From a virus: DNA of 42,949 nucleotides. The stretch covers positions 1 through 42,949 of IMG/VR virus record IMGVR_UViG_3300022074_000105; one strand, written 5' to 3'. Both the position numbers and the translations under genes were made by a program. The notes under the pieces are model-generated. The model was not told the origin of the DNA. It saw nothing but the letters and a program-made list of their open reading frames with translations, and did not search any database. This document shows positions 5,551-37,237 of this stretch, one piece after another; position 1 is the first letter of the stretch, and every line of letters begins with the position of its first letter.

Positions 5551-5588
5551 TTTGTATCAAATTGGGCATTTTTGTATCAAATTAGGCA
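5551..5588 (+). repeat. Tandem 18-bp repeats, 20-bp period
   Basis: Two near-identical copies, TTTGTATCAAATTGGGCA at 5551-5568 and the same with one change at 5571-5588. The 20-bp period is about two helical turns, so a bound protein would meet both on one DNA face. They end 38 bases before the -35 box of the early promoter. An equivalent pair with identical spacing is at 33498-33535. Confidence 0.85.
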
Positions 5589-5596
5589 AAAATAGG

Positions 5597-5625
5597 AAAA
5601 AAAGTGATTTTTTTATCACTTTTCC
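5597..5625 (+). terminator. Hairpin with T-tract upstream of early promoter
   Basis: AAAAGTGAT pairs with ATCACTTTT around a loop of T residues, continuing into T-rich sequence. It can end transcription from the upstream operon just before the next promoter starts. The same element precedes the promoters at 14890, 33574 and 37186. Confidence 0.75.
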
Positions 5626-5626
5626 C

Positions 5627-5655
5627 TGTACAATTATCCAAAAGTGTGGTAGAAT
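5627..5655 (+). promoter_or_regulatory. Early promoter, TGTACA-17-TAGAAT
   Basis: TGTACA (5627-5632), 17-base spacer, TAGAAT (5650-5655). The ATG at 5662 lies six bases after the -10 box, where transcription is expected to start, so the message is probably leaderless. The core from CCCTGTACAATT onward is almost identical in four copies in this window. Confidence 0.85.
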
Positions 5656-5661
5656 ATACTT

Positions 5662-5877
5662 ATGAGCAATACTACCACAACCACCGCTAACGAGAGATTC
5701 CTTCAGAACCAAGTTCGCTGGGTCCTTCCTGAAATCAAGGACGTCCTTCAAATGGCCGATCTGATGGATACCGCCGAGGACAAGGCGGAGTTTCTTCAGG
5801 ACTCTATGAATGCTGTTCACAAGCGCCTTCTCAAGGTTCTTGAAGCTACCGGAACGAAGCCTTCCATGTTCAGCTAA
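5662..5877 (+). CDS. Hypothetical early protein
   Basis: 71 residues starting MSNTTTTTANERFLQNQ; after the Thr-rich start it is helical and charged. It is the first gene of an early block, and its ATG coincides with the predicted transcription start. It ends 39 bases before the next gene. It may be one of the small proteins that redirect host metabolism, but this rests on position alone. Confidence 0.65.
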   Translation: MSNTTTTTANERFLQNQVRWVLPEIKDVLQMADLMDTAEDKAEFLQDSMNAVHKRLLKVLEATGTKPSMFS

Positions 5878-11598: not shown

Positions 11599-11606
11599 TA
11601 TAAATA
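11599..11606 (+). promoter_or_regulatory. Late promoter TATAAATA
   Basis: Exact T4-type late consensus, five bases before the ATG at 11612. Confidence 0.65.
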
Positions 11607-11611
11607 ATAAT

Positions 11612-11998
11612 ATGCGATCAGTCACCACCTGCATCCTCTCTGTTCTGTTCACATTCATTTCATTTATTTCAGTTGTTATACCCTACAAGGATAAACCTAA
11701 ACCTGTGGCAGAACCTTCTCTTGACCAAACAAAAACTTTAGTATTGGCAAGTACTGACTTGTTTGGTTTAATGGAAAACAATCCCTTTACAGCTGTGGGT
11801 TTATACACGCTAACAGCAGATGGAAAATCCAATGTCGTTTTTCTACCTTGCTGGAATGATATAGACTATGTACAAGGATTGGCTGGTGACCGAAGAAGGT
11901 ACTATATCTTTAATAAGGTAATAGATGCTTTAAGCCAAGACGGTATTTGGCAACTAAGGATTGTTCCTCTCGCGAAAAGTACTAATGCTAAAGCTTAA
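11612..11998 (+). CDS. Exported or membrane-anchored hypothetical protein
   Basis: 128 residues: an N-terminal hydrophobic segment (about 7-24, ILSVLFTFISFISVVIP) that may be a signal peptide or anchor, then a soluble domain containing STDLFGLMENNPFTAVGLYTL. It has an exact late promoter. Its stop faces the stop of the minus-strand methyltransferase 12 bases away. No family is recognised. Confidence 0.6.
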   Translation: MRSVTTCILSVLFTFISFISVVIPYKDKPKPVAEPSLDQTKTLVLASTDLFGLMENNPFTAVGLYTLTADGKSNVVFLPCWNDIDYVQGLAGDRRRYYIFNKVIDALSQDGIWQLRIVPLAKSTNAKA

Positions 11999-12543: not shown

Positions 12544-13222
12544 TACTTTCAGTCTCTTCTACAAGATCGCCAACCTGCTTGGCAGTCTTCCAAACTCGAC
12601 CTCCGTTTTCTTTACAGTAGTCGAGCATCTCTTCCTTTTCCCCAACCGCCTGTACCTTTCTGTCAGAAACCACTGCATAGTGAAGCTTGGTGTCAGTACC
12701 AACTGCATCTTCTCCAACCTTAATGGTTTTGACTTGTTCGGTTTGAACTTCTTCTACGATTCGGTGGTAAAGCATATCCTTGTCGCTGAACTTCCATTCA
12801 TCAGCATTAAAGTAAGGCTTCTTCCGAAGCTTGGAATATTCGTCGGAAGAGATCTTGTTTGTTTTGTCAAGCTTTGCCTTGGTCATTTCTTTAAGGTCGC
12901 CAGATTCCTTACCCAGAATATAAGAATGCAAATCTTGCATCGTGGAATGAAGGCCACTTAATTTGTTTTGAAACCACTCAGGATAACTACCTCCGTTAAT
13001 AAGTATGTTTCTAATTTCAGTAGAAGAATGACAAATAAAATTAAGTTGTGTGATAGCCATTGCAAGCTCTTTTTCGTTAGGAAGGTTAAGCGGCTCATGC
13101 GCACCTTCAGCCCAAGTAGCTGGAATAGATTCTTCTTCAATTGCAGATTTTTCTGGCTTTAATACTTCGTATGCAGCAAGAACAAGCGGATCTTTTTTGG
13201 TATATTCCTGAGAATTTTTCAT
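12536..13222 (-). CDS. Conserved phage protein, possibly virion-associated
   Basis: 228 residues from the ATG at 13222, chosen because an exact late promoter lies just upstream; a start at 13246 would place that promoter inside the gene. The segment YPEWFQNKLSGLHSTMQDLHSYILG resembles helical regions in structural proteins of T4-like marine phages. The acidic C-terminus ends GDLVEETESNE. The late promoter supports a virion or late role; the function is not known. Confidence 0.62.
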   Translation of the reverse strand: MKNSQEYTKKDPLVLAAYEVLKPEKSAIEEESIPATWAEGAHEPLNLPNEKELAMAITQLNFICHSSTEIRNILINGGSYPEWFQNKLSGLHSTMQDLHSYILGKESGDLKEMTKAKLDKTNKISSDEYSKLRKKPYFNADEWKFSDKDMLYHRIVEEVQTEQVKTIKVGEDAVGTDTKLHYAVVSDRKVQAVGEKEEMLDYCKENGGRVWKTAKQVGDLVEETESNE

Positions 13223-13227
13223 GAAAC

Positions 13228-13235
13228 TATTTATA
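13228..13235 (-). promoter_or_regulatory. Late promoter TATAAATA (minus strand)
   Basis: TATTTATA on the plus strand reads TATAAATA on the minus strand, five bases before the ATG at 13222. It drives the 12536-13222 and methyltransferase genes. Confidence 0.7.
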
Positions 13236-14764: not shown

Positions 14765-14847
14765 AATAGACACAAATGTGCTAAAATGGATACAAATCCC
14801 ATTTAGCCGTCAAAATAGACACAAATGTGCTAAAATGGATACAAATC
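14763..14847 (+). repeat. Two 36-bp direct repeats, 49-bp period
   Basis: Copies at 14763-14798 and 14812-14847 are identical over 36 bases and contain CACAAATGTGCTAAAATGG followed by GATACAAA. GATACAAA is the reverse complement of the TTTGTATC core in the repeats at 5551 and 33498. They end 43 bases before the early promoter. Confidence 0.88.
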
Positions 14848-14860
14848 GGAAAAAAAGTGA

Positions 14861-14886
14861 AAAAAAGTGATTTTTTTATCACTTTT
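14861..14886 (+). terminator. Hairpin with T-tract upstream of early promoter
   Basis: AAAAGTGAT/ATCACTTTT stem with a T loop, the same element as at 5597-5625. It would terminate the exonuclease operon. Confidence 0.75.
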
Positions 14887-14889
14887 CCC

Positions 14890-14918
14890 TGTACAATTAT
14901 CCAAAAGTGTGGTAGAAT
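14890..14918 (+). promoter_or_regulatory. Early promoter, TGTACA-17-TAGAAT
   Basis: TGTACA (14890-14895), 17 bases, TAGAAT (14913-14918). The spacer ATTATCCAAAAGTGTGG is identical to that of the 5627 promoter. Confidence 0.85.
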
Positions 14919-14947
14919 AGTATAGTAACGAAAAACCACCACAGATT

Positions 14948-18612: not shown

Positions 18613-19176
18613 ATGAATGACTTTATAAATCTGGTGAATGATAAAAACATTCTGCTTGTTGGTAATGGTTCTTCCGTATTAAAACACGACTATAGTAAAG
18701 ACATTGACTCATATGAATTTGTAATAAGATTTAACTATGGAATAAAGGAGTTTCATAAATTTCCGAACGCGGGTAAAAAGGTAGACGCATGGTTTTATAC
18801 AATAAAGTCGCCTAATACCTGCATTAGAGTTTATAAGGATACACGGATTAAAGCCAAGCACTGTATAAGACATGCTAATGATCCTGTAAAAATCGGCAAA
18901 TATCAGTATTACATCCCGGCCGACTTTCGAGAAAAACTTAATAAGAGCTTGAATTATCCTAAAGATAAACTCGCCTCCAGCGGACTTTGCGCTATACATT
19001 ATTTGGTTGATTACTGCAGTCCTAAATCAATTACGCTTGTAGGATTTGATTCCTTTGATACTGGTAATTATTACAACGGTAAAAACTTAGCTTATAAGTG
19101 GCACCCTGCCGATATTGAAAAGGCATATATAAATAATCTTATTGAAAAAAATAAGATTTCGGTATTGGATATTTAG
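18613..19176 (+). CDS. GT29-like (sialyltransferase-like) glycosyltransferase
   Basis: 187 residues. ILLVGNGSSVLKHD near residue 14, DIDSYEFVIRFNYG near residue 30 and SITLVGFDSFDTGNYY near residue 138 match the nucleotide-binding and core motifs of GT29/sialyltransferase-like proteins in bacteria and phages. The donor sugar need not be sialic acid. A homologue at 26357-26914 closes the island. The gene is AT-rich and has its own late promoter. Confidence 0.76.
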   Translation: MNDFINLVNDKNILLVGNGSSVLKHDYSKDIDSYEFVIRFNYGIKEFHKFPNAGKKVDAWFYTIKSPNTCIRVYKDTRIKAKHCIRHANDPVKIGKYQYYIPADFREKLNKSLNYPKDKLASSGLCAIHYLVDYCSPKSITLVGFDSFDTGNYYNGKNLAYKWHPADIEKAYINNLIEKNKISVLDI

Positions 19177-19178
19177 TT

Positions 19179-19901
19179 ATGAAAAATTTGATTTATCAAT
19201 ATTACATTCCTTATGAGGCTGGTGACTCTCATTATGGTGGAGTTCAGATGCCAGGATGGGCGTTGAAAGGAAGTCAGTCTGCTGAAAATTATGCAAAGAA
19301 AGTTGACGCTGAATACGTATTATCTCATAAAAGATATTACAAACATCTTGATCCCAGGCTTGATTCAATAAGACTTTTTTATGATAAAGCGTTTGACGAA
19401 TACGATAACATTTTGTGTTTAGATTTGGATATGTTGGTAACCACGTCTGATAACATTTTTGATATTGAAATTAAAGATGTTGCTATGGTACACGAATTAG
19501 GAGTGCATAAAGGTACTCCAGGAAGAACATGGATATCCCGCGTTATGGATGTGCCGAATTACCAAAGAGGTGTAATTGCTTACGGCAAAAAGTTATTTGG
19601 TAAAGACTGGATGTTTCCAAAATCTAAGTTGTATCCAAATGAAGCGTTTAGATACTTAAACGGTGGACTGCAATTATGGTCAAAAGAAGGAAGGCAAAAG
19701 GCAAGAAAGCATTTTACTTCTATTGATGATTACTATTTGCATACACGATATACAGAACAAATGTATATAAATTTACAACTTTCTCAATCGGTTTTTAATG
19801 TAACCGAATTGGATACAAGTTGGAATAGACTTTCTTCAAGACAAGAATTAAACGGTAAAATTAATCACTACATTGGCCCTCATAAGAAAAGAATGATATG
19901 A
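19179..19901 (+). CDS. GT-A glycosyltransferase, GT8-like
   Basis: 240 residues opening MKNLIYQYYIPYEAG. The motif ILCLDLDMLVTTSDNIF near residue 78 supplies the DxD metal site, and FRYLNGGLQLWSKEG fits the NxG acceptor segment of GT8-like enzymes. The start resembles the gene at 21495-22301 (MKTLIYQYWLG), so these two are probably paralogues. The stop overlaps the next gene by four bases. Confidence 0.78.
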   Translation: MKNLIYQYYIPYEAGDSHYGGVQMPGWALKGSQSAENYAKKVDAEYVLSHKRYYKHLDPRLDSIRLFYDKAFDEYDNILCLDLDMLVTTSDNIFDIEIKDVAMVHELGVHKGTPGRTWISRVMDVPNYQRGVIAYGKKLFGKDWMFPKSKLYPNEAFRYLNGGLQLWSKEGRQKARKHFTSIDDYYLHTRYTEQMYINLQLSQSVFNVTELDTSWNRLSSRQELNGKINHYIGPHKKRMI

Positions 19902-20509
19902 AAAAGTATTTGGAAATCGCCGCAGGTAGATTAAAATCAGATGAATGGGCTGGAATAAGAGATGTACCAACAAAGGACCCTGCGGTTCTGCAATATGATA
20001 TGACCGATCTGCCAATGAAAGGTATTGCAGATAACACATTTGAAGGCGTGTATAGCGAACATTTTATCGAGCATATATACAAATATCAAGGGATAGATTT
20101 CCTTAAAGAAATGTTTAGGATATTAAAATCAGGAGGCGTGATTAGAACTATTTGGCCGCCTTACGAATTTGTAGAAAAACTTGTAAGTAACGAAAAACTA
20201 ACTGATAGCGAAGAATACTTTGTTAAACGTTATTATGATTTTTATATACGTAAGAAAAACTTTGCGCCGCAGGGGTTTAAACATAAAAGTAAAAGAGAAC
20301 AGTGCGCGCTTGGATTGCTTTATCAAGAAGGCGAACACCTGTGTGTATGGTCAATAAAAGATTTAAAGCAAGAATTGAAAAACGCTGGGTTTGTAAATGT
20401 AAAAGAACAAAGGTACCAAGCGAGCGATTTTACTCCGTTTAAAAATTTAGAATTAAAGTGCGAAATTAGAAAAGCTCATTCAGCTGTAATAGAAGCGGTA
20501 AAGCCATGA
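19898..20509 (+). CDS. SAM-dependent methyltransferase
   Basis: 203 residues. YLEIAAGRLKSDEWAGI near residue 4 is a modified motif I, then DLPMKGIADNTFEGVYSEHFIEHI and FRILKSGGVIRTIWPPYEF, the pattern of Methyltransf_11-like enzymes acting in sugar or lipid pathways. It probably methylates a sugar or glycan made by neighbouring enzymes. It overlaps both neighbours by four bases. Confidence 0.82.
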   Translation: MKKYLEIAAGRLKSDEWAGIRDVPTKDPAVLQYDMTDLPMKGIADNTFEGVYSEHFIEHIYKYQGIDFLKEMFRILKSGGVIRTIWPPYEFVEKLVSNEKLTDSEEYFVKRYYDFYIRKKNFAPQGFKHKSKREQCALGLLYQEGEHLCVWSIKDLKQELKNAGFVNVKEQRYQASDFTPFKNLELKCEIRKAHSAVIEAVKP

Positions 20510-20907
20510 CCATTATAACAGATATAGACAAAGATACATATATCAGCTATTGGTTACCCCTTGCATATAAACATCAAGATAGCAAATTTGTATTTCATAC
20601 CATACAAAAATTACCTAAAGTTGCTATTCCTAAAAATGTAAAAATAGTTGCGTCGGAAACAGAGGCCGCGGTACATATTGGTAATATTGCGTTTTTAACA
20701 CAAAAGGATTTAATTCCTACTTACGAAATAATGGTTTATTTAGAAAATCTAAAGAGATACAAATTCATAAACCCACACGTACAAGGCACAAACGAAAGTA
20801 CAAATTCCTTTACAGTAAAGAACGATTACAAAGGCGAATCATCAATAGATTATTCCAAGAAATACAATTTAAATGATGATACCTCATTAACACTTTACAA
20901 AGTATGA
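20506..20907 (+). CDS. Hypothetical protein in glycosylation island
   Basis: 133 residues, mixed alpha/beta, starting MTIITDIDKDTYISYWLPLA. No catalytic motif is visible. It overlaps both neighbours by four bases (ATGA type), so it is translated with the methyltransferase and the following gene. It may be a small transferase or an accessory subunit. Confidence 0.55.
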   Translation: MTIITDIDKDTYISYWLPLAYKHQDSKFVFHTIQKLPKVAIPKNVKIVASETEAAVHIGNIAFLTQKDLIPTYEIMVYLENLKRYKFINPHVQGTNESTNSFTVKNDYKGESSIDYSKKYNLNDDTSLTLYKV

Positions 20908-21443
20908 ACCTAGCTAAAGTAAATACTTCCAAATTTAAATATCGTCTAGGGGATGCCGTACTTTTAAAAAATAGAGCGCGGGACGATATGAAGCGCTTTC
21001 CCGATACAATAGGTTATGATTATTTAAGGGCAATCAATTGGTCTTTGAAACCTTTTGATAAAGATACGTTTTTAAACGTTGTTAATAATCATATTGCTAA
21101 ACATAATTATAAAGCGCCTGAAACAGAATTCGTTTTACACTGGAGATTATATCCTAGCTCCAGCTGGAAAATGAATATGGAAAAGCTTAAAGAAATTGTT
21201 GATGGTAGAGATATTACCGTTTGTGCAGCAATACACTGCGATAACAAGAAGGGAATAAATGATCTGTACAAATATCTTGAAAATGATAATGTAAGATTGC
21301 AATCTTCGACAAATCCTGATGAAGATTTTGCGTTTGCGTTTCAAGCAGAAAATCTTATATGTACAGCAGGTACATTTTCTGGATTGTTATATAGATGCAA
21401 AGAACATAGCGCGTGGTATATGTGGAATTCTAAGAATAAATAA
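20904..21443 (+). CDS. Putative glycosyltransferase, fucosyltransferase-like
   Basis: 179 residues. FVLHWRLYPSSSWKMN near residue 74 and DEDFAFAFQAENLICTAGTFSGLLYRC near residue 140 (read as two shorter blocks) resemble the donor-binding end of GT-B enzymes such as GT11/GT37-like fucosyltransferases, where a Gly-Ser/Thr-Phe-Ser segment follows an acidic residue. The match is weak by eye; a different GT family is possible. Confidence 0.48.
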   Translation: MNLAKVNTSKFKYRLGDAVLLKNRARDDMKRFPDTIGYDYLRAINWSLKPFDKDTFLNVVNNHIAKHNYKAPETEFVLHWRLYPSSSWKMNMEKLKEIVDGRDITVCAAIHCDNKKGINDLYKYLENDNVRLQSSTNPDEDFAFAFQAENLICTAGTFSGLLYRCKEHSAWYMWNSKNK

Positions 21444-21494
21444 TAAATGAATGATATTATAACAATGCGTCCGGATGGGCGATAAAAAAATAAG

Positions 21495-22301
21495 ATGAAA
21501 ACATTAATATATCAATATTGGCTTGGTAAGCCTGGTATTGCAGTAAAGGCTGGAATAGAGAATATGAAAGCATACGCTAATCAAGTGGGTGCTGATTATA
21601 AATTTGCAAAGAATCCTACATGGGGTTCTAATCATTGCGATATTCCAGAGTACTATAATGCGTTTGAACCAATTTATAATCCTGAGTTTTACGAAAAGTA
21701 TGATAAAATTTTATTCGTTGATACAGATGTATTTGCAGTTAATGGACTAAAAGAAAACATTTTTGATTTAAATGTTGGACATATAGGTATTTGTGATGAA
21801 CCGCATAAAGAAAAATCTCACACAACAACCAAAGGCGCATTAAATTCTAAAGCAGACGAAGCATGGAATAAAATGCTAGTTGACAACTATAAAAAAGAGA
21901 TGCCTAGAAATAAAGATGGTCAACTTAAAATCTTTAACAGTGGTGTAGTATTATACACAAAACAAGGATTGGCGGTCGCTAGAAATAACTTTGTTCCATT
22001 TCAAAAATACATTGATAACTGCAGAAGATATAGATTAAATAGGTTCTATAGCATTGATCAAAATTATTTACATGCCATGTTGATAATTGGTAATTTAAAT
22101 TATACAGTAATGGAGTCTGGTTGGAATAGTTATGTACATTATGACGAACACATTGATAAAACAAAACCTAGACCAATCGTTGATGCTAGAACAGATGAAA
22201 CAAAATTTGTTCATGTACAATTAAGAGGTGCCGATGATAAAGATGCGGATTGGCATAACACAATAGTAAATAAACCTGTATCAGATTGGAAATTACAGTA
22301 A
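21495..22301 (+). CDS. GT-A glycosyltransferase, GT8-like
   Basis: 268 residues. ILFVDTDVFAVNGLKENIFD near residue 72 holds the DxD site, and LKIFNSGVVLYTKQGL the NSG motif typical of GT8-like enzymes. A conserved FYSIDQNYLHAML block and VHVQLRGADDKDADWH near the end complete it. It opens MKTLIYQYWLG, like 19179-19901. A 51-base gap upstream holds no clear promoter. Confidence 0.78.
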   Translation: MKTLIYQYWLGKPGIAVKAGIENMKAYANQVGADYKFAKNPTWGSNHCDIPEYYNAFEPIYNPEFYEKYDKILFVDTDVFAVNGLKENIFDLNVGHIGICDEPHKEKSHTTTKGALNSKADEAWNKMLVDNYKKEMPRNKDGQLKIFNSGVVLYTKQGLAVARNNFVPFQKYIDNCRRYRLNRFYSIDQNYLHAMLIIGNLNYTVMESGWNSYVHYDEHIDKTKPRPIVDARTDETKFVHVQLRGADDKDADWHNTIVNKPVSDWKLQ

Positions 22302-22984
22302 TGAACGCGTATATTATTACAACCATTAATGCATTTAAAAGTGAAAAGGTAGAGAAACTTACACAAAGATGCGTAGATTCTTGCCGTGAATTCAACCTTG
22401 AACCTATTCTCGTTGATGCTGTTGTTCCAGCAACTTTAGAAAAAGTATATCCTGGTTGGTTGGTTCGAGAAGATTATAGGGAAAGACTTTATAATAACTA
22501 TAGAAGAAAAGCTGGTAAAGAACCAACAGAAGAAATAAAAAATCGTATGATAGTGATGCAACAATGTATGACTATGAGTCACTACAAAACAAGAGAAACT
22601 ATTATTGAAAAAGGAGATAAAGTGGCAGTTATTCTTGAACACGACGCGGTTTTTATGAGATCATTACCAAATAATGTAAATTATCGTTCTTGTGTTGTAA
22701 ACCTTTGCTCAAGAGAACAAGCAACACATGGATATGTCGTTAACCCTGAATACGCGCAAAAATATAATGATATTTACGAAAAAATTGGTTTTGCAGGACA
22801 CGATAATATGAATCGTTATATCAACAAATATGAAGAAATTAAGATAACGCCATTTTTAAAAAATCCTGTTGTTGGCGGTAATGCATTACACGAAACGCAA
22901 TGGGATACTCATCGAGGTGCGCTCAAAACGCACTTAGATTATGTTCCAACTACTACAACTGGAGTTTATAATAAAAAGAAATAA
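22301..22984 (+). CDS. Glycosyltransferase family 25-like
   Basis: 227 residues from the ATG at 22301 (TAATG overlap with the upstream stop). AVILEHDAVFMRSLPNN near residue 109 corresponds to the LEDDA donor-binding motif of GT25 enzymes with a His replacing one Asp. CVDSCREFNLEPILVDAV at the start is typical of GT25. GT25 enzymes add sugars to lipo-oligosaccharide or proteins. Confidence 0.74.
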   Translation: MNAYIITTINAFKSEKVEKLTQRCVDSCREFNLEPILVDAVVPATLEKVYPGWLVREDYRERLYNNYRRKAGKEPTEEIKNRMIVMQQCMTMSHYKTRETIIEKGDKVAVILEHDAVFMRSLPNNVNYRSCVVNLCSREQATHGYVVNPEYAQKYNDIYEKIGFAGHDNMNRYINKYEEIKITPFLKNPVVGGNALHETQWDTHRGALKTHLDYVPTTTTGVYNKKK

Positions 22985-22988
22985 AGTT

Positions 22989-23564
22989 ATGTTAACTGCA
23001 ACAATTGAAAACGTAAAAACTTTAAAGGACTTTTATTCGCAGATCAGATGCCAGCAAGAAGATCCTAAAAATCACGGGAAAGCTTATTGTGCGCACCATG
23101 ATTTTATTCAAAGATATATGGAAGATTGTGATTCTTATAAAGAATTAGGAACACATCAAGGAGCTTCTGCAGCTGCAGCATTATTAGGTGGTGCTAAAGA
23201 AGTACATTTAATTGATCACACACTTGAAAAATTTAATTGGCAAAAACATCTATTTGAAAAATTTGCTGAGGAAAATAATGTTTCTTTAAACGTTTACGAA
23301 ATGAGTTCAATTGATAAACGTTGTGCGGTTTCAACCGATATGCTAATGATTGACTCGTTACACAAGTGGTCTTGGACGATTCAAGAACTTGAGCTTCATG
23401 CGGCGAGAACTAAAAAATATATTGTTCTTCACGATACGGCGGTCGTAAATAAACAGCCGTCAGATATTGGGCCGGGCGTACACGAATGGTGTAAACATAA
23501 TGATTGGGAAGTATTGGAAGAAGAAACCAAGAATGTAGGCTCTATGATTATAAAGAAAGGATGA
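22989..23564 (+). CDS. SAM-dependent methyltransferase, Methyltransf_24-like
   Basis: 191 residues from the ATG at 22989. SYKELGTHQGASAAAALLGGA near residue 49 is a glycine-rich motif I, EVHLIDHTLEKFNWQK follows with the acidic ribose contact, and TDMLMIDSLHKWSW and KYIVLHDTAVV complete the pattern of Methyltransf_24-type enzymes linked to glycan pathways. It overlaps the next gene by four bases. Confidence 0.77.
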   Translation: MLTATIENVKTLKDFYSQIRCQQEDPKNHGKAYCAHHDFIQRYMEDCDSYKELGTHQGASAAAALLGGAKEVHLIDHTLEKFNWQKHLFEKFAEENNVSLNVYEMSSIDKRCAVSTDMLMIDSLHKWSWTIQELELHAARTKKYIVLHDTAVVNKQPSDIGPGVHEWCKHNDWEVLEEETKNVGSMIIKKG

Positions 23565-24229
23565 AAGCATACATAATCGGTAATAACAACGATGATAGAT
23601 CGGTTACCGCAATGGCTGCTTGCATTAGCACTGCGACTCTTCCTGTTAAAATGTTCCAACAGGTATCTGCAGAAGATATAACAGAAAAGAATCTCGACCA
23701 ATACACATATCCCATTGGAGATAAAACTGTGGTGTGTAAAAAGTCAGGTTTAACTCTTCACGGTCGAGGATATGGTAATAATATAAAGGCCAAGGTTGCG
23801 TGCACTCGCAGTCATATGGCTTTGTGGAATCTTTGTATTGAACAGAATGAACCGTTAATGATTCTTGAGCACGACGCGGTGTTTATAAGATCTTTTGAGC
23901 CGTTTGATTTTGAAGGTGGCATACTTGGTTTAAACGACCCCAGAGGAGCAACTCGAAAGTCAAATGTATTTCATAAAAAGGCCTCGGCCCAAAAGGGAAT
24001 CACGTCTTGCCCTATGGTAGATAGTCAAAACGTACCTCAAGGTTTAGCGGGAAACTCAGCTTATATAATTAAACCTTTTGCTGCAAAGCATTTACTTGAA
24101 TTAGTTGATGAATATGGAATTTGGCCAAACGATGCTCTTATGTGTAATCACCTTTGTCCTGATATGCTAAAGGTTGTTTATCCTTATTATACAAAAGTGC
24201 AAGGTGTAATGTCAACAACTACAAAGTAA
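23561..24229 (+). CDS. Glycosyltransferase family 25-like
   Basis: 222 residues from the ATG at 23561. LMILEHDAVFIRSFEPF near residue 99 is the GT25 acidic motif with His, as in its two paralogues, and ACTRSHMALWNLCIEQNEP precedes it as in GT25. NSAYIIKPFAAKHLLELVDE gives the C-terminal block. It is the second of three GT25-like genes in the island. Confidence 0.76.
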   Translation: MKAYIIGNNNDDRSVTAMAACISTATLPVKMFQQVSAEDITEKNLDQYTYPIGDKTVVCKKSGLTLHGRGYGNNIKAKVACTRSHMALWNLCIEQNEPLMILEHDAVFIRSFEPFDFEGGILGLNDPRGATRKSNVFHKKASAQKGITSCPMVDSQNVPQGLAGNSAYIIKPFAAKHLLELVDEYGIWPNDALMCNHLCPDMLKVVYPYYTKVQGVMSTTTK

Positions 24230-24231
24230 TA

Positions 24232-24969
24232 ATGAATAAATTTTTAACATTTGGAGAAGGGCCTGATACGTTTAAAGCGGCAGCTTCTAGATTATCTAAA
24301 GAAGTTAAATCTCTTAATTTATTTAGCGTAATAGAGAATAACAATTTCTCTACACTGGATAAAGATTTTCAGAATAAACATAAAGATTTAATGTTTGATA
24401 ATAATAGGGGGTTTGGTTTTTGGATATGGAAATTCCATATCATTAATCGCATGTTTGAGAACAGCGAAGATGGCGATAAAGTTTTATATTCAGACGCGGG
24501 GTGCAGATATTTAGCCGATATTAAAACAAAACTTTCTGATGCTCTTGCGCTTGATTATGATGTTATTGACCACACTCACGGAGGCGATAATGATACTTTT
24601 AAAACCGGTGGTCCGGGGTATTGGTTATATGGCGCTTCAACAAATAATGAAACATGGACTAAAATGGATACGCTTAAATATCTTGAAGCTACTGAAGAAG
24701 TTCGTAAGCAAAGGATGCATGCAGCAACCGTGTTAATGTTTACTGTAAATGATAAAACGAGAAACCTTGTTAAAAAGATAGATACAATAATGCAATCCGA
24801 TTATCATTTGATTGATGATACCCCTAGTAATGAAAAAAATGTAAAAGGATTTATGAGTCATAGACACGATCAATCAATTTATTCGCTATGTCTATGTTCT
24901 GATAAAGATTTGAAGGTAAATACCAATTGTACAAATTGGGTTTCTAGATTTAGATACAAAAAGGGATGA
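24232..24969 (+). CDS. Putative GT-A glycosyltransferase
   Basis: 245 residues. NNRGFGFWIWKFHIINRMF near residue 58 then DKVLYSDAGCRYL near residue 81 match a group of uncharacterised capsule-associated transferases in which WxWKPxII is followed by a YxDAG motif in place of DxD. SHRHDQSIYSLCL near the end fits the same family. Acceptor unknown. Confidence 0.66.
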   Translation: MNKFLTFGEGPDTFKAAASRLSKEVKSLNLFSVIENNNFSTLDKDFQNKHKDLMFDNNRGFGFWIWKFHIINRMFENSEDGDKVLYSDAGCRYLADIKTKLSDALALDYDVIDHTHGGDNDTFKTGGPGYWLYGASTNNETWTKMDTLKYLEATEEVRKQRMHAATVLMFTVNDKTRNLVKKIDTIMQSDYHLIDDTPSNEKNVKGFMSHRHDQSIYSLCLCSDKDLKVNTNCTNWVSRFRYKKG

Positions 24970-25601
24970 TGAAACCTTTTGTTATAACCATTTCAGATAT
25001 TGAAGAGTCTGTGAACTCGGCTCAACGCTGTATTGACTCCGCGGAAAAGTTTGGTATTAAAGTAGAAACTTTTAATGCATTTACACCAAAAGATAAACCC
25101 TTTGATGTATTTGAAAAGCTTGGTATTAAACTAACAGATAGAATACACAAGAATCCTCATTTAAGAAGTTTGGACGCTCAGTGTTCTTGTCTGCTTTCTC
25201 ACTATTCTTTATGGCAAAAGGCAATTGATTTAAACGAACCAGTTTTGGTTTTAGAACACGACGCAGTGTTTGTAGATAAACTACCTGATCTTAAAGATTA
25301 CCTTTTGGTCAATTTAGCCAAGCCGTCATATGGTCGTTATCATCATCCTAAAAATGGTTTACACACCTTTCCGAATCCTCATTTAAAAGGAGCTCATGGA
25401 TACGCCATATCACCCAATGGCGCAAAAAGAATAATGGATACCATAAATAAAAATGGCATTTGGGCCGGTGCAGATGTATTTTTAAATTTTAGCTGGATGC
25501 AAGAATATGCGCCCTGGCCGATAAAAGCCATATCAGAATTTACTACTATACAATATACATCAGACAAAAAAGGAATAACGAAAGTTATTAAACAATCATA
25601 A
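24966..25601 (+). CDS. Glycosyltransferase family 25-like
   Basis: 211 residues; two consecutive ATGs (24966, 24969) are possible starts, with AAAAAGGG upstream. PVLVLEHDAVFVDKLPDL near residue 94 is the GT25 motif with His, and SCLLSHYSLWQKAIDLNEP before it is typical of the family. HGYAISPNGAKRIMDTINKNG closes the fold. This is the third GT25-like gene in the island. Confidence 0.76.
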   Translation: MMKPFVITISDIEESVNSAQRCIDSAEKFGIKVETFNAFTPKDKPFDVFEKLGIKLTDRIHKNPHLRSLDAQCSCLLSHYSLWQKAIDLNEPVLVLEHDAVFVDKLPDLKDYLLVNLAKPSYGRYHHPKNGLHTFPNPHLKGAHGYAISPNGAKRIMDTINKNGIWAGADVFLNFSWMQEYAPWPIKAISEFTTIQYTSDKKGITKVIKQS

Positions 25602-25609
25602 CTTATATT

Positions 25610-26341
25610 ATGGCCGGCTCGCAAATAAATCAATCATCAAAAATTATAAACGGAATCGATTTAACCATTCCAACTCCTTATCCACCGGTTAGATCAAGGG
25701 GTGGTGAAGATCCTAAAAAAATTACTGTGGCTTGCGTTTGGTGGGGAACTCTTTATGGAAAAGAGTATGTTGAAAAGTTACGCAACTCGGTTGCTCGACA
25801 TCTTACCGTTCCTCATGATTTTGTCTGTCTTACTGATCGTGATGATGTACCAGAAGGTGTAAAAAAGATCCCGCTGGAAGTTGGACCAGAGGGATGGTGG
25901 CAAAAAACTTCACTATTCAAGCCAGATCTTTTCAAGGGCAAGGTTTTATTTTTGGACTTGGACGTTATTATAATTAATTCACTTGATAAATTTGCGTCTA
26001 TTGTAAGTCCTTTTACCATGATCGAAAATTTTGGACCGAATAAAAAGCATGCCGCCCACAACTCTTCAGTTATGGTATGGACTCCTTCACCTCAAACCGA
26101 AAAAATTTATACTCAATTTTCAAAAGAAGTTACACGCGAGCTTCACGGTGATCAATGTTGGATTTGGCGAGTTATGGATAAAGATATAACCAATTATGAG
26201 CTGGATTGGGTTGACAGTTATAAGTATGGAAACCGCAATCCGTGGAAAAGAAAAACTGAAAATACTTCGATCATTGTCTTTCACGGCAATCCGAAACCGC
26301 ATGATAATATAAACTCGAGCGTAAAGAAACACTGGAGATAA
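25610..26341 (+). CDS. GT-A glycosyltransferase
   Basis: 243 residues. VACVWWGTLYGKEYVEKL near residue 42, WWQKTSLFKPDLFKGKVLFL near residue 93 followed by a DLDV metal site, then NSSVMVWTP and LHGDQCWIWRVMD and FHGNPKPHD near the end, form a coherent GT8/GT-A family pattern found in phage and bacterial glycan clusters. TATATTATG precedes the start. Base use is closer to that of core genes than in the genes upstream. Confidence 0.77.
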   Translation: MAGSQINQSSKIINGIDLTIPTPYPPVRSRGGEDPKKITVACVWWGTLYGKEYVEKLRNSVARHLTVPHDFVCLTDRDDVPEGVKKIPLEVGPEGWWQKTSLFKPDLFKGKVLFLDLDVIIINSLDKFASIVSPFTMIENFGPNKKHAAHNSSVMVWTPSPQTEKIYTQFSKEVTRELHGDQCWIWRVMDKDITNYELDWVDSYKYGNRNPWKRKTENTSIIVFHGNPKPHDNINSSVKKHWR

Positions 26342-26356
26342 TTTGCAGCTTTTTGT

Positions 26357-26914
26357 ATGAAATTAAGTGATGCAGTAAAGGGGAAAGAAGTTCTGGTAGT
26401 TGGTAACAGCAGATCTTTACTGCTACAAGATTACTCAGAACTTATTGATTCGCACGAGTTTGTTATTCGTTTTAATCTTTCAATTGCATACTTACACATG
26501 CATGCTATAGGACAAAAATGCGACGCTTGGATATTTGCCATGAAGCTTGAAAACTTATGCCAAGAAATTTATTCTAAAGCAGAAGTAAAGCCTGACCTTT
26601 GTGTAAGATACGATCGCCATCCTCCAGTGAATTTAAGACACGATTATATTCATCTTGACTGCGATCCCAAGGATGCAGCATTGGCCATTGATACAAAAAA
26701 GGATCCAAGTGTAGGGATATCTACCATTTGGTATTTACTTAATAAAGCTTCTCCTGCAAAGATTAAACTTATAGGGTTTGACTCATTTAAAAAAGCAAAC
26801 TTTTATAGAAAAAGAATAAGCCGTAGTGTAGAAAAACGTCACCATGCTAAGGCCGAAGAAAGATACTTAAACAAACAAAGTGAAGAAGAAAATATAATTT
26901 TTTTAGACAGATAA
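26357..26914 (+). CDS. GT29-like (sialyltransferase-like) glycosyltransferase
   Basis: 185 residues. VLVVGNSRSLLLQDY near residue 13, LIDSHEFVIRFNLS near residue 30 and IKLIGFDSFKKANFY near residue 137 repeat the motif set of the gene at 18613-19176. The two have diverged strongly, so they are old duplicates or separate acquisitions. This gene ends the island and is followed by the holin late promoter. Confidence 0.74.
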   Translation: MKLSDAVKGKEVLVVGNSRSLLLQDYSELIDSHEFVIRFNLSIAYLHMHAIGQKCDAWIFAMKLENLCQEIYSKAEVKPDLCVRYDRHPPVNLRHDYIHLDCDPKDAALAIDTKKDPSVGISTIWYLLNKASPAKIKLIGFDSFKKANFYRKRISRSVEKRHHAKAEERYLNKQSEEENIIFLDR

Positions 26915-26987: not shown

Positions 26988-27185
26988 ATGGAACAACTAA
27001 TCGCATTCGTACAAGACGAAGTATGGTTTAACTGGGCAACTGCTATTATTGCGGCAGCTGCTGTTATTACTGCCTCTACCCCAACACCAGCTCAAGGATC
27101 CAAGCTTGGTTATGTTTACTGGGTTATTGACTTCCTTGCTCTGAACATTGCTAAGGCAAAGGACAAGGGCGAAGGATCGGAGTAA
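26988..27185 (+). CDS. Holin-like protein
   Basis: 65 residues. Short acidic N-terminus, an Ala-rich hydrophobic segment (AIIAAAAVITASTPTP), the polar turn AQGSK, a second hydrophobic segment (LGYVYWVIDFLALNIA) and a charged end (KAKDKGEGSE). The TPTP turn and ending resemble holin-like membrane proteins of marine phages. It would form membrane lesions at lysis. A late promoter and neighbouring spanin-like and amidase genes support this. Confidence 0.7.
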   Translation: MEQLIAFVQDEVWFNWATAIIAAAAVITASTPTPAQGSKLGYVYWVIDFLALNIAKAKDKGEGSE

Positions 27186-27665: not shown

Positions 27666-27935
27666 TTAACTGTAATAAATTTTCTTTAAGTGGTCCTCAA
27701 ACTGTTCAATAATCTTAAGTCGGTTGGGCCAAAGAATGTAATCTTTTTCTGGACTACTTTTAAGGTTATTCAATAAAGGCAGAACTGCAGAGTAAAGAGA
27801 ATCAATCTTTTCTTGATTGGCATCTGCTTCAGCAGTTGTTTTTTGGATTTCTGTTTGTGCTTCTTGATATGAATTTAATTCTGTTTCGTCTACAACAGTA
27901 AATCCAAAATCGAAGAAGTCGTCGTTATTGCTCAT
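27666..27935 (-). CDS. Conserved small T4-like phage protein
   Basis: 89 residues. It opens MSNNDDFFDFGFTVVDETEL and ends with SPEKDYILWPNRLKIIEQFEDHL, two blocks I recognise from a small protein family of T4-like marine phages; the region between is a coiled-coil-like helix. Function not established. It overlaps the amidase gene by four bases and is read from the same late transcript. Confidence 0.72.
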   Translation of the reverse strand: MSNNDDFFDFGFTVVDETELNSYQEAQTEIQKTTAEADANQEKIDSLYSAVLPLLNNLKSSPEKDYILWPNRLKIIEQFEDHLKKIYYS

Positions 27936-28564
27936 AGTTCTTTAATTCTTTTTAATACCAGTTCTTGAGTTTCTTCAGAACAATCATTCTTCCGGCCTGG
28001 TGAAACTTGTTCGTGAGTGAGTATCTTGCTTTCGTCTAAACCAAATTTGCTCATAAGGTAAATACATTTCTTAGCGCAAGAATCAATTTCTGCTGCGGAA
28101 GGTGTTCGATTATTTGTATCTCCGTAAAAGGATATAGCCACACTATGACTGTTTAATCCACTGATCCCACCCCAGTTTGAACTTCCTGCATGCCATGCCT
28201 TTTTGGTATCTTTCACAAATTGAGTACGTGAACCGTCGGCAGCAATTAGATAATGATAGCTAACATTTGAAGCACTATTTAAAATCCAAGAACGTGTACC
28301 ATCATGACTTCCGCTGCTGTGATGTAGAATAATATACTTGGGAATAATTGTTCCACTTTGGTTTGGGGAAGATTTAAAAACTTCAGAATAGTCATCTTGA
28401 ATGGTTTCAACCGAAGCTTCTGGTTTTTCTGGTTCTCCTTTACCGTCATGCACAAGGTTCTCCCAAATCATCTTCCATGTTTTAGGTCCGTCAATACCAT
28501 CAGCTTTTAAACCAAGTGCAGCTTGGACCTCTTTTACGATGCCTTGTTTTCCTTTGAATCTCAT
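27932..28564 (-). CDS. N-acetylmuramoyl-L-alanine amidase (endolysin)
   Basis: 210 residues. An N-terminal peptidoglycan-binding repeat (GIVKEVQAALGLKADGIDGP, about 8-40), a linker rich in Pro, Glu and Asp, then an Amidase_2 domain with the zinc His at YIILHHSSGSHDGT (81-82), AWHAGSSNWGG near 125 and LTHEQVSPGRKNDC (H184, D194/C195). It cuts the bond between MurNAc and L-Ala. No signal peptide, so it needs the holin at 26988-27185. Late promoter just upstream. Confidence 0.9.
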   Translation of the reverse strand: MRFKGKQGIVKEVQAALGLKADGIDGPKTWKMIWENLVHDGKGEPEKPEASVETIQDDYSEVFKSSPNQSGTIIPKYIILHHSSGSHDGTRSWILNSASNVSYHYLIAADGSRTQFVKDTKKAWHAGSSNWGGISGLNSHSVAISFYGDTNNRTPSAAEIDSCAKKCIYLMSKFGLDESKILTHEQVSPGRKNDCSEETQELVLKRIKEL

Positions 28565-28584: not shown

Positions 28585-28592
28585 TATTTATA
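28585..28592 (-). promoter_or_regulatory. Late promoter TATAAATA (minus strand)
   Basis: Exact consensus on the minus strand, 20 bases before the amidase ATG at 28564. Confidence 0.72.
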
Positions 28593-29238: not shown

Positions 29239-29246
29239 TATAAATA
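29239..29246 (+). promoter_or_regulatory. Late promoter TATAAATA
   Basis: Exact late consensus, five bases before the ATG at 29252. It would express the DUF1549/DUF1553 and DUF1501 pair late in infection. Confidence 0.75.
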
Positions 29247-29251
29247 TATCC

Positions 29252-31000
29252 ATGGTTAGGTTAATACTTGTTACTGCACTAGTCCTGGTTTCTAATTATG
29301 CATTGGGAGAGGTCTCACCCAGCTTAAAAATCGACCAACTTATTGCAAGTAATTTACGCGCAAATAAAGTGGCAATGCCCACAAAGGCATCGGACGAAGT
29401 GTTTGTTCGCCGTGCTTATCTAGACATTGTTGGAAGAATCCCAACATACGACGACCGCGAAACATTCATTCGCGACCCCAATAAAGAAGCTCTTATTGAA
29501 AAGCTGATTAATTCACAAGGATATGTCGAGTCAATGTTTAACTTCTATGCTGACTTGCTTAGGATTAAACGAAAGGTGGTTAACAACGTTCCGGCTGATA
29601 CCTATATCACTTGGATCAAAGAGCAGATCGCGGTTAACACTCATTACGACGAGTTTGTCAAACAGCTTCTAACAGCTGAAGGCGACATTTACGATAACCC
29701 TGCAGTTGGGTATTACCTAAAGGACGAAGGAATGCTACTTGACAATGTGGCAAACACCTTTACGGCTCTTGCAGGAACAAATATCTCATGCGCTCAATGC
29801 CATGACCATCCGTTTGATGAATGGACTCAAATGGATTACTACAATATCACCGCTTTCTTTTCCACGCTAAACACGCGAGGTCTTGCCGAGGAGAGATCCA
29901 TTTACGGCAAGCTTAGAACAGAAGCTCGCGCTTCGGACGAAAAGGGTGATACCCGTGGAGCGATTAACAGGCTCGGTCAGTGGTGGGCAGTTGGAGGATA
30001 TCGTAACACAATTACCCATGATCCTAAAAAGGTTTTAAAGCTTCCTCACGATTACAAATACAGCGATGCCGAACCATATGAAACGGTTGAAGCTCGTACA
30101 CCAATTGGCCAAGTTCTTCGAGAAGGTAGCGAACGCGGTACATTAACACAGGACTTTGCTAAATGGTTTACTGATGATCAGCATCCGACCTTTGCTACCA
30201 ATATTGTAAATCGTCTTTGGTATAAAGCGTTTGGATTCAAGCTTATCCATTTTACCCTTAATGACATTGCTCTTTTTGATGAACTGCGTCACAGTAAAAA
30301 CGCCGAGCTTGTTCAGTACTTAACTCAACTGATTAAAGATCTTGACTATGATACGCGGGAGTTTAATCGCATTCTTTACAATACTCGGTTTTACTCTTCT
30401 CAATCAGATGACGGCGACACGTTTCGTGGACCAAAGATGAGACGCATGACTTCAGCTCAGCTTTGGGACAGCATTGTTACACTACATACTGGAGACGTTG
30501 ATGCATGGCAACCTGCTGATCTTCGAGGAACATACCGTGAGCTCTTCACAACTGATTTGGCAAGCGTTAATTCAACCACCGCATTAGAGACCTACGCTGA
30601 ATACCAAAAGCTACAGCGGCAGTATTACGAAGGTGCTCCAAAAATGGGACGTGAAATGATGATACGTTCTTCAAATATTTTTGAAGGTTCGGCTGGTAAT
30701 TTCATGCTTGAGTTTGGAAGGTCTGATAGGAATCTAATCGAGACTGGTAATGAAGACGCAAACATTACTCAGATTCTAACCCTTATGAACGGTCCTTTAA
30801 CCAAAGGCCTTATGGACGATAACAATCAGGTTATTGATAGGTTGGCCGATTGGAACAAAGACACTGCGATTGAATACCTTTTTGCTTCTTACATCGGCAG
30901 GTATCCAACAGAGCAAGAGATTAAAAACTTTATGAATGTTCCCTTTGCGGACATTGTGTGGGTGTTGATTAATAGCCACGAATTTAAACTTATTATTTAA
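29252..31000 (+). CDS. Exported DUF1549/DUF1553 protein with CxxCH motif
   Basis: 582 residues. A signal peptide (VRLILVTALVLVSNYALG, about 2-19) is followed by a DUF1549 domain (VFVRRAYLDIVGRIPTYDD near residue 50; CAQCHDHPFDEWTQ at 180-193 with a c-type haem motif) and a DUF1553 domain (NIVNRLWYKAFGFKL near residue 320; the C-terminal LFASYIGRYPTEQEI). Such proteins, usually 700-1000 residues with an extra cytochrome domain, are abundant in Planctomycetota and Verrucomicrobiota, always beside DUF1501 genes. Here the cytochrome domain is missing. I know of no assigned function and no common phage example. Confidence 0.9.
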   Translation: MVRLILVTALVLVSNYALGEVSPSLKIDQLIASNLRANKVAMPTKASDEVFVRRAYLDIVGRIPTYDDRETFIRDPNKEALIEKLINSQGYVESMFNFYADLLRIKRKVVNNVPADTYITWIKEQIAVNTHYDEFVKQLLTAEGDIYDNPAVGYYLKDEGMLLDNVANTFTALAGTNISCAQCHDHPFDEWTQMDYYNITAFFSTLNTRGLAEERSIYGKLRTEARASDEKGDTRGAINRLGQWWAVGGYRNTITHDPKKVLKLPHDYKYSDAEPYETVEARTPIGQVLREGSERGTLTQDFAKWFTDDQHPTFATNIVNRLWYKAFGFKLIHFTLNDIALFDELRHSKNAELVQYLTQLIKDLDYDTREFNRILYNTRFYSSQSDDGDTFRGPKMRRMTSAQLWDSIVTLHTGDVDAWQPADLRGTYRELFTTDLASVNSTTALETYAEYQKLQRQYYEGAPKMGREMMIRSSNIFEGSAGNFMLEFGRSDRNLIETGNEDANITQILTLMNGPLTKGLMDDNNQVIDRLADWNKDTAIEYLFASYIGRYPTEQEIKNFMNVPFADIVWVLINSHEFKLII

Positions 31001-31010
31001 AGGAAAAAAT

Positions 31011-32213
31011 ATGAACACAGATAGACGTAAATTCATCGCTGGTTTAGCCGCCGCCACATACGGTGTGAACGTGGTAGATGCCCAGCCTGTTAAAGATACA
31101 AAAGCCAAGAACATCATCTATATCTGCCTTGATGGTGGAATGAGTCACATTGATTCGTTTGACCCAAAGACAGATAAAGAAGTGGCAGGAGACACCACCG
31201 CGATTGGAACAACAGGCGAGTTTCAAATCGGACACCGCCTTCCTAAACTTGCCAAGGTAATGGACAAGGCTGCTGTTATTCGATCACTGACTTCAAAGAC
31301 CGGTGCTCACCGACAGGCTCAGTATCTGAACCGAACTTCGTTCAAGCAACTTGCGACTATCACTCACCCTTCTCTTGGAAGTTGGGTTTCTCACTTGTCA
31401 AATCGAGACACCACCATACCTGACTTTGTTCTTGTTAGCGGTGCAAGTTCTCACCCTGGCAGTGGATTCCTTCCCAAGGTTAAGTCACCTCTTCCTATTG
31501 TAGATCCAAACTCGGGTCTAAGAAACTCTGCAGCAGACGCTAAACTACTTGAGCGCATGGATCTGCTTCGGCAGGTTAACTCAAAGATCCAGTCTCCGAT
31601 TGCTTCTCAGTACAATGACTTTTATGAAAATACAGTTCGCTTTTTAGAGTCAGAAGATCTCAATTTGTTTGACCTTTCAAAGGTGTCCGCTCAAGATAAA
31701 GAGCGGTATGGTAACACTCGCCTCGGCCAAGGGTTACTCCTTGCAAAGCGACTTGTTCATGGCGACGTTCGATTCATTGAGGTTAACAACGGAGGTTGGG
31801 ATACCCACACAGAGAACTTTGAGAAGCTCGATAACAAGCTTAAAGAAGTTGACGACGCTGTAAGCGCGCTTGTTACAGATCTTGAAAGCGAAGGACTTCT
31901 TGATTCAACGCTGATCGCGATTGTAACTGAATTTGGTAGAACACCAAAGATCAATGTTAACACCGGACGAGATCACTATCCCCAGGCTTACTCAACTCTT
32001 CTTATCGGAGCTGGTATTAATGGTGGTGTGGCTGTGGGTGAAACAAATGAGCAAGCGACAAAGGTGATATCTGATCCTTATACAATTACCGATGTGAACG
32101 CTACCATCGCTCACCTTGCTGGACTTGATCTTGAGCAAAGCCACTTCTCTCCAACCGGAAGACCATTCCGAGTGGCTGATTACGGTAAGATTATTAAGGG
32201 TGCTCTTACTTAA
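31011..32213 (+). CDS. DUF1501 protein with Tat-type signal
   Basis: 400 residues. An N-terminal twin-arginine segment (TDRRKFIAGLAAATYG) suggests Tat export. The alkaline phosphatase/sulfatase-like core shows ICLDGGMSHIDSFDPK near residue 38, NNGGWDTH (259-266), VTEFGRTP (305-312) and GRDHYP (319-324), the standard DUF1501 blocks that carry the metal-binding positions. Bacterial DUF1501 genes stand beside DUF1549/DUF1553 genes, as here, ten bases apart with AAAGGA before the ATG. The enzyme activity is unproven. Confidence 0.93.
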   Translation: MNTDRRKFIAGLAAATYGVNVVDAQPVKDTKAKNIIYICLDGGMSHIDSFDPKTDKEVAGDTTAIGTTGEFQIGHRLPKLAKVMDKAAVIRSLTSKTGAHRQAQYLNRTSFKQLATITHPSLGSWVSHLSNRDTTIPDFVLVSGASSHPGSGFLPKVKSPLPIVDPNSGLRNSAADAKLLERMDLLRQVNSKIQSPIASQYNDFYENTVRFLESEDLNLFDLSKVSAQDKERYGNTRLGQGLLLAKRLVHGDVRFIEVNNGGWDTHTENFEKLDNKLKEVDDAVSALVTDLESEGLLDSTLIAIVTEFGRTPKINVNTGRDHYPQAYSTLLIGAGINGGVAVGETNEQATKVISDPYTITDVNATIAHLAGLDLEQSHFSPTGRPFRVADYGKIIKGALT

Positions 32214-33497: not shown

Positions 33498-33535
33498 TTT
33501 GTATCAAATTGGGCATTTTTGTATCAAATTGGGCA
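33498..33535 (+). repeat. Tandem 18-bp repeats, 20-bp period
   Basis: TTTGTATCAAATTGGGCA occurs at 33498-33515 and again, identical, at 33518-33535. The arrangement and the 38-base distance to the -35 box equal those at 5551-5588. Confidence 0.88.
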
Positions 33536-33543
33536 AAAATGGC

Positions 33544-33572
33544 AAAAAAGTGCATTTTTTTAGCACTTTTCC
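33544..33572 (+). terminator. Hairpin upstream of early promoter (stem variant)
   Basis: AAAAGTGC pairs with GCACTTTT around a T-rich loop. In the other copies the stem is GTGAT/ATCAC; here both sides changed together, which supports the hairpin as the selected form. Confidence 0.78.
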
Positions 33573-33573
33573 C

Positions 33574-33602
33574 TGTACAATTATCCAAAAATGTGTTAGA
33601 AT
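33574..33602 (+). promoter_or_regulatory. Early promoter, TGTACA-17-TAGAAT
   Basis: TGTACA (33574-33579), 17 bases, TAGAAT (33597-33602). The first gene starts at 33637. Confidence 0.85.
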
Positions 33603-33636
33603 ATATCTATAAGGAAAAACTACCACAATTTATATT

Positions 33637-37053: not shown

Positions 37054-37166
37054 GCGCAGGAAAAGGAGACAAACCCCGGAAGGTCAACGGGGAAAAATAC
37101 AGATCCAATTACGACCAAATCTTCAGAAAAAAATTAAAGAAACCCAAAAAAGGTGAAAAAAAGTGA
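37050..37166 (+). CDS. Small conserved basic peptide (38 aa)
   Basis: 38 residues starting MSAGKGDKPRKVNGEKYRSN, then YDQIFRKKLKKPKKGEKK. KGDKPR.VNGEKYRSNYDQIF is a common tiny phage protein of unknown role. It overlaps the HAD gene by four bases. Its stop codon lies inside the terminator stem of the next promoter module, so translation could affect hairpin formation. Confidence 0.7.
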   Translation: MSAGKGDKPRKVNGEKYRSNYDQIFRKKLKKPKKGEKK

Positions 37167-37183
37167 TTTTTTTATCACTTTTC
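37156..37183 (+). terminator. Hairpin upstream of early promoter
   Basis: AAAAGTGAT/ATCACTTTT with T loop, fourth copy of the element. The upstream gene's TGA falls within the stem. Confidence 0.75.
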
Positions 37184-37185
37184 CC

Positions 37186-37214
37186 TGTACAATTGTCTAA
37201 AAATGTGTTAGAAT
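37186..37214 (+). promoter_or_regulatory. Early promoter, TGTACA-17-TAGAAT
   Basis: TGTACA (37186-37191), 17 bases, TAGAAT (37209-37214). Unlike the other three, no TTTGTATC repeats precede this copy. The first gene is at 37238. Confidence 0.85.
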
Positions 37215-37237
37215 AGATCTACACCACAAATTATATT

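Follow-up and report, generated by a model that had tools for sequence, protein, structure and literature searches.

A DUF1549/DUF1553 and DUF1501 gene pair with predicted export signals and a late-promoter motif in uncultured T4-like phages

Genes of the DUF1549/DUF1553 and DUF1501 families are abundant in Verrucomicrobiota and Planctomycetota, and sulfatases and carbohydrate-binding domains are frequent neighbours of theirs there (PMC5615132). They have been strongly amplified in planctomycetes and verrucomicrobia, and in Rhodopirellula baltica DUF1549 and DUF1553 each occur in 41 copies (PMC2754498). Their function in cells is unsolved (PMC5615132, PMC2754498). The T4-type late promoter is recognized by TATAAATA or NATAAATA upstream of late genes, together with a gp33-type coactivator (PMC1524935, PMC2984593); in T4, the late motif occupies positions -13 to -6 (PMC1524935).

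Here we describe a pair of such genes in a viral genome. The window, that is, the whole stretch of DNA analysed, is IMG/VR virus record IMGVR_UViG_3300022074_000105, with a length of 42,949 nucleotides. An earlier note, made from the letters alone, had described an exported DUF1549 protein with the motif CAQCHDHPFD and a DUF1553 end, a twin-arginine DUF1501 protein ten bases downstream, and a late promoter five bases before the first ATG, all in a T4-like phage. This description was borne out by our analysis, and both reading frames, their strand and order, and the gap of ten bases (31001-31010) match it exactly. The features of the pair are as follows.

29239..29246, plus strand: TATAAATA, predicted T4-type late promoter of gene 1, with the ATG at 29252 and the predicted +1 at the A of this ATG
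29252..31000, plus strand: gene 1, DUF1549 (PSCyt2) and DUF1553 (PSD1) protein of 582 aa with a predicted Sec-type signal peptide (Pfam)
29252..29311, plus strand: predicted Sec signal peptide MVRLILVTALVLVSNYALGE (a crude call by eye; relatives have hydrophobic N-termini)
29327..29869, plus strand: DUF1549/PSCyt2 domain (Pfam)
29789..29803, plus strand: CAQCH (CxxCH motif), unchanged in all 37 viral relatives (100%)
30152..30934, plus strand: DUF1553/PSD1 domain (Pfam)
30999..31004, plus strand: AAAGGA, Shine-Dalgarno-like site of gene 2 (sequence)
31011..32213, plus strand: gene 2, DUF1501 protein of 400 aa with a predicted alkaline-phosphatase/sulfatase-superfamily fold (Pfam, model)
31020..31037, plus strand: DRRKFI, twin-arginine (Tat) motif (sequence)
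31800..31808, plus strand: D264-T-H266, whose D and H are invariant and, by analogy, probably bind metal (alignment)
31974..31976, plus strand: H322 of GRDH, an invariant residue that, by analogy, probably binds metal (alignment)

In the Pfam search, the matches of the first protein to PSCyt2/DUF1549 (PF07583; residues 26-206, E=2.8e-40, 139 bits against a cut-off of 29.8) and PSD1/DUF1553 (PF07587; residues 301-561, E=8.5e-20, 71.6 bits against 28.5) were above the curated cut-offs and covered nearly the entire profiles. CAQCHDHPFD occupies residues 180-189. Residues 32-397 of the second protein matched DUF1501 (PF07394; E=5.9e-94, 315.8 bits against 27) over positions 1-388 of the 390 in the profile, and its N-terminus, MNTDRRKFIAG, contains the Tat-type motif. 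The predicted signals, Sec-type on the first protein and Tat-type on the second, recur in nearly all viral relatives.

The window also contains the T4 core genes gp32, gp59, NrdA, DNA ligase and RNase H, together with a late coactivator (gp33-type) gene, and its gp32 is closest to those of Kyanoviridae phages. By profile searches, the genes were found in 65 viral contigs. Both are complete in 49 of them, and in 49/49 DUF1549/DUF1553 is followed by DUF1501 on one strand, with intergenic gaps mostly of -4 to +10 nt; the remaining contigs have a partial pair or a single gene, and there the match reaches the contig end or comes near it. T4 portal and/or capsid genes were present on 17 of the 50 related contigs tested (capsid gp23 above the cut-off in 15 records and portal gp20 in 16). 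The contigs bearing them are up to 225 kb long, several being 171-225 kb, and in four records the portal gene lies 1.5-2.8 kb from the pair. A third subclade, the L041 group, has a T4-type clamp loader and 5'-3' exonuclease on contigs without portal or capsid genes. The IMG/VR relatives of the window include a 99.9% identical contig, one with 79/85% identity and the same neighbourhood, and one with 39/53% identity on a 197-kb contig. The G+C content is 0.30-0.42 in the viral sequences, compared to 0.50-0.73 in the cellular relatives.

No relative of either protein was found in the cultured-phage collection at 1e-5, and neither is represented in PHROGs. We found no relevant phage report on these families in the open-access literature (subscription papers lay outside the search); a DUF1501 annotation in Pseudomonas phage ZC03 refers to a 61-aa ORF and is irrelevant here (PMC5418858). 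As far as we searched, the pair, a viral version of families already known in cells, is new to phages.

The earlier note had also called for trees, and in these the viral copies formed a single clade for each gene: 37/37 viral sequences among 72 DUF1549/DUF1553 proteins (SH-aLRT 99) and all 45 pair-type viral sequences among 139 DUF1501 proteins (support 97), both being quick searches without bootstrap on the best 80 of 325 cellular loci. The main subclades match in the two trees, and therefore the two genes have travelled together. For each of the two genes, ten pairwise comparisons gave dN/dS ratios of 0.03-0.16, and the viral copies are under purifying selection. They keep the family-invariant residues, namely CAQCH in the first protein and D51, H100, D264, H266, R310 and H322 in DUF1501. 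These comparisons indicate that the pair is one old viral lineage carried by many uncultured T4-like phages. More DUF1501 paralogues, these lacking a DUF1549 partner, occur at L066 5825-7081, L070 1321-2577 (minus strand), L041 4254-5504 and L018 12888-14330; 13 partnerless paralogues make up a second viral clade, and a third, longer kind of DUF1501 was seen in L018 and the G014 record.

The missing cytochrome domain had led the earlier note to call this a minimal version of the system. The domain is indeed absent, as Pfam found none in the first protein. However, its absence does not set the phages apart: PSCyt1 is equally lacking from the DUF1549/DUF1553 chain of the nearest cellular relatives, and we therefore rejected loss of the domain by the phage. 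PSCyt1 is an adjacent gene in three near cellular relatives, and some have a sulfatase next door. A PSCyt1 partner was not found in 33 viral records, which is a weak result because the control genomes also gave no match.

The model of the first protein (AlphaFold2) has a pLDDT of 94.6 and a pTM of 0.92. It matched no fold in the PDB, including any cytochrome (best E 0.23), and none among the viral models of BFVD; a weak resemblance to phycobilisome-linker/DUF4214 helices was set aside. CAQCH, a haem attachment motif (CxxCH), is present in 37/37 viral rows of the alignment and is possibly a c-type haem or metal site. The DUF1501 model (pLDDT 92.5) had 215 PDB matches at E<=1e-3 with sulfatases on top, and the protein models as a member of the alkaline-phosphatase/sulfatase superfamily, in agreement with the phosphatase/sulfatase-like nature suggested earlier. 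H46, D48, D51, H100, D264, H266 and H322 are invariant or nearly so and E/D307 is conserved; by analogy, D264, H266 and H322 are probable metal ligands. We rejected a sulfatase proper, since the Pfam Sulfatase profile (PF00884) scored 17.5 bits, below its cut-off of 25, and the signature C/S-x-P-S-R is absent from the sequence. Neither family has, to our knowledge, a known substrate.

The timing of expression can be predicted from the region upstream of the pair. TATAAATA ends five bases before the ATG of gene 1, and the window also has the gp33-type coactivator gene. Alone, the motif is mildly enriched in the window (9 found against 3.8 expected), whereas TATAAATA-N5-ATG was found three times against 0.09 expected, a count reached in 0/100 shuffles; the three sites are 29239-29254, 11599-11614 and 13220-13235. 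ATAAATA-N5-ATG precedes the first gene of the pair in 23/23 members of the window's clade. The portal gene of these phages has the identical spacing, while gp23 has a Shine-Dalgarno-like leader instead. Across the loci of the clade, five-base spacing was observed in 61/215 ATAAATA sites, and a Shine-Dalgarno-like site in 0/85 genes having ATAAATA-N5-ATG. In the stretches of T4, S-PM2 and P-SSM4 examined, the spacings were 14-37, and in pelagiphage HTVC008M 6/18 sites had the five-base spacing. The two other subclades each have a different motif conserved at this place: NTAAATA (13/15) in one and TAAGTATA (4/7) in the other. Because the T4 late motif lies at -13 to -6, transcription would start (+1) at the A of the ATG, and a leaderless mRNA is predicted. 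The pair appears to be switched on late in infection, and from the five-base spacing, late mRNAs of this group of T4-like phages are predicted to be leaderless. A search for the gp33 coactivator in 15 other records gave no match, and the controls were equally silent. The ATAAATA-N5-ATG pattern is group-wide in loci L008-L078 and L170-L178, where it includes the portal gene. An element made up of an AT-rich hairpin, a T-run and, after these, TGTACA and TAGAAT boxes is repeated in the window at 5551-5680, 14842-14947, 33498-33628 and 37147-37221; its copies look like a terminator with a sigma-70-type early promoter, and Rfam gave no match.

Upstream of the pair lie conserved neighbours.

26988..27185, plus strand: small membrane protein of 65 aa, conserved neighbour (cluster 4), resembling a holin in its context only
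27932..28564, minus strand: N-acetylmuramoyl-L-alanine amidase (endolysin-like), conserved neighbour (Pfam, neighbour clusters)
28585..28592, minus strand: TATAAATA, 20 bases before the amidase ATG (sequence)

The amidase endolysin is near the pair at 17 loci of the window's clade, in which further neighbours include a lysozyme of phage type, a small protein of the membrane and a lipoprotein whose gene is nested in another frame, and several of these neighbours share the ATAAATA promoter. Among the parts of a possible lysis cassette, the amidase/lysozyme is firm, and the holin and spanin candidates, which were picked out by their length, a membrane segment, a lipobox and a nested position, matched no named family. 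The lysis context is not universal, because in other subclades the pair adjoins portal, gp32 or clamp-loader genes. Therefore, the pair behaves as a cassette and its link to lysis is clade-specific.

Other genes around the pair deserve mention. A lipoprotein of 80-84 aa (lipobox LTSC) lies out of frame over a coiled-coil gene in a spanin-like layout, upstream of the pair at L004 4837-5215 and 13 other loci. Close to the pair, phages L017-L027 encode an exported protein of the EF-hand type and a small protein resembling an outer-membrane beta-barrel (L023 15176-15550 and L020 3782-4252, both minus strand). As clues to the host, such exported EF-hand proteins in some phages and the Planctomycetota/Verrucomicrobiota relatives of the pair are leads only. 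In L041 (7671-9947) and L044 (1288-3587), the clamp loader gene gp44 is split in two just upstream of the pair; the break is flanked by intein-like halves with a separate ORF of 306-307 aa between them, possibly a homing endonuclease, and the arrangement resembles that of a fractured gene carrying a split intein.

A role in the host envelope at release is favoured by the late timing, the export signals, the hydrolase-like partner, which is intact, and the nearby lysis genes, and we consider such a role quite possible, if tentative. The two genes would be transcribed together from the T4-type late promoter. The first product, with its one CxxCH, would be exported by Sec, and the second, with its alkaline-phosphatase/sulfatase-superfamily fold, would fold before export by Tat. 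As infection ends, both may then work together in the periplasm or on the surface of the cell, where charged (sulfated or phosphorylated) envelope glycans would be removed or altered. This could ease lysis and progeny release and keep the progeny from sticking to debris. Against this role, the pair adjoins non-lysis genes outside the window's clade, the upstream motif differs in other subclades, the sulfatase signature is missing and the Sulfatase match is under the cut-off. A stronger form is doubtful: that the pair is a dedicated late release factor, planctomycete/verrucomicrobium-type in origin, in which a helical CxxCH protein without a solved fold match and a non-canonical alkaline-phosphatase-fold hydrolase, as modelled, would form a two-component enzyme that opens or strips a glycan-rich envelope beyond holin, endolysin and spanin.

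It is also conceivable, if on the doubtful side, that these are auxiliary metabolic genes, which would boost the use of glycans or sulfate esters or the periplasmic electron transfer of the host for carbon, sulfur or energy. The frequent sulfatases and carbohydrate-binding domains near cellular members (PMC5615132), and the PSCyt1 cytochromes or sulfatase adjoining close cellular pairs, are consistent with this. However, the promoter is late and not early, the context in the window's clade is one of lysis genes, there is no true sulfatase, and the 33 viral records gave no PSCyt1 partner (with controls silent too).

Genes for superinfection exclusion are usually early. The late promoter thus makes it unlikely that the pair alters a receptor glycan and blocks adsorption of sister phages, although the predicted export towards the envelope would suit such a task and the window holds a glycosyltransferase/methyltransferase island at 18.6-26.9 kb. 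Exclusion overlaps with the release role, and the present data do not separate them. The island itself (18613-26914) includes a GT29 sialyltransferase-like ORF (18613-19173) and three GT25-type ORFs.

Enzymes carried in the virion and used at entry might be expected to have a late promoter and, as in some subclades, the portal gene next to them; Sec and Tat signals are unexpected for T4-type virion proteins, which are assembled in the cytoplasm, and we regard this as very improbable. An assembly chimera or a bacterial contig misfiled as viral, named in the earlier note as a refutation and favoured by nothing we found except that the families are mainly cellular, is ruled out for practical purposes, because IMG/VR relatives of all three degrees of identity carry the pair, and because of the 65 contigs (several reach 171-225 kb and bear the portal and capsid genes of T4), the single viral clades and the low G+C.

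The pair suggests that infection by uncultured T4-like phages includes an envelope step that has yet to be described. Until now these families were known chiefly from the genomes of planctomycetes and verrucomicrobia, and a viral pair that is compact, under strong selection and predicted to be expressed at a given time is a tractable system for finding their substrate.

Compared to the pairs of Planctomycetota and Verrucomicrobiota, the viral pair has common Pfam domains, invariant residues and the CxxCH, and the nearest cellular ones share its gene order; the best cellular DUF1501 match is 44% identical (among the best 80 of 325 loci). However, the first protein has about 575-620 aa in viruses and 650-810 in those cells, and unlike its cellular counterparts it has its own clade, a phage late promoter and phage neighbours. 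DUF1501 resembles the alkaline-phosphatase/sulfatase superfamily (choline sulfatase 6g5z, arylsulfatase A) in its predicted fold and a C-terminal metal-site-like region, but C/S-x-P-S-R is lacking, the SDHG-type motif reads (E/D)FGR, and the TM-scores reach only about 0.3-0.46. Among phages, the marine Kyanoviridae pelagiphage HTVC008M has annotated curli CsgF/CsgG/CsgB-like genes; although these belong to unrelated protein families, they are like the present pair in being host-like genes for exported surface proteins.
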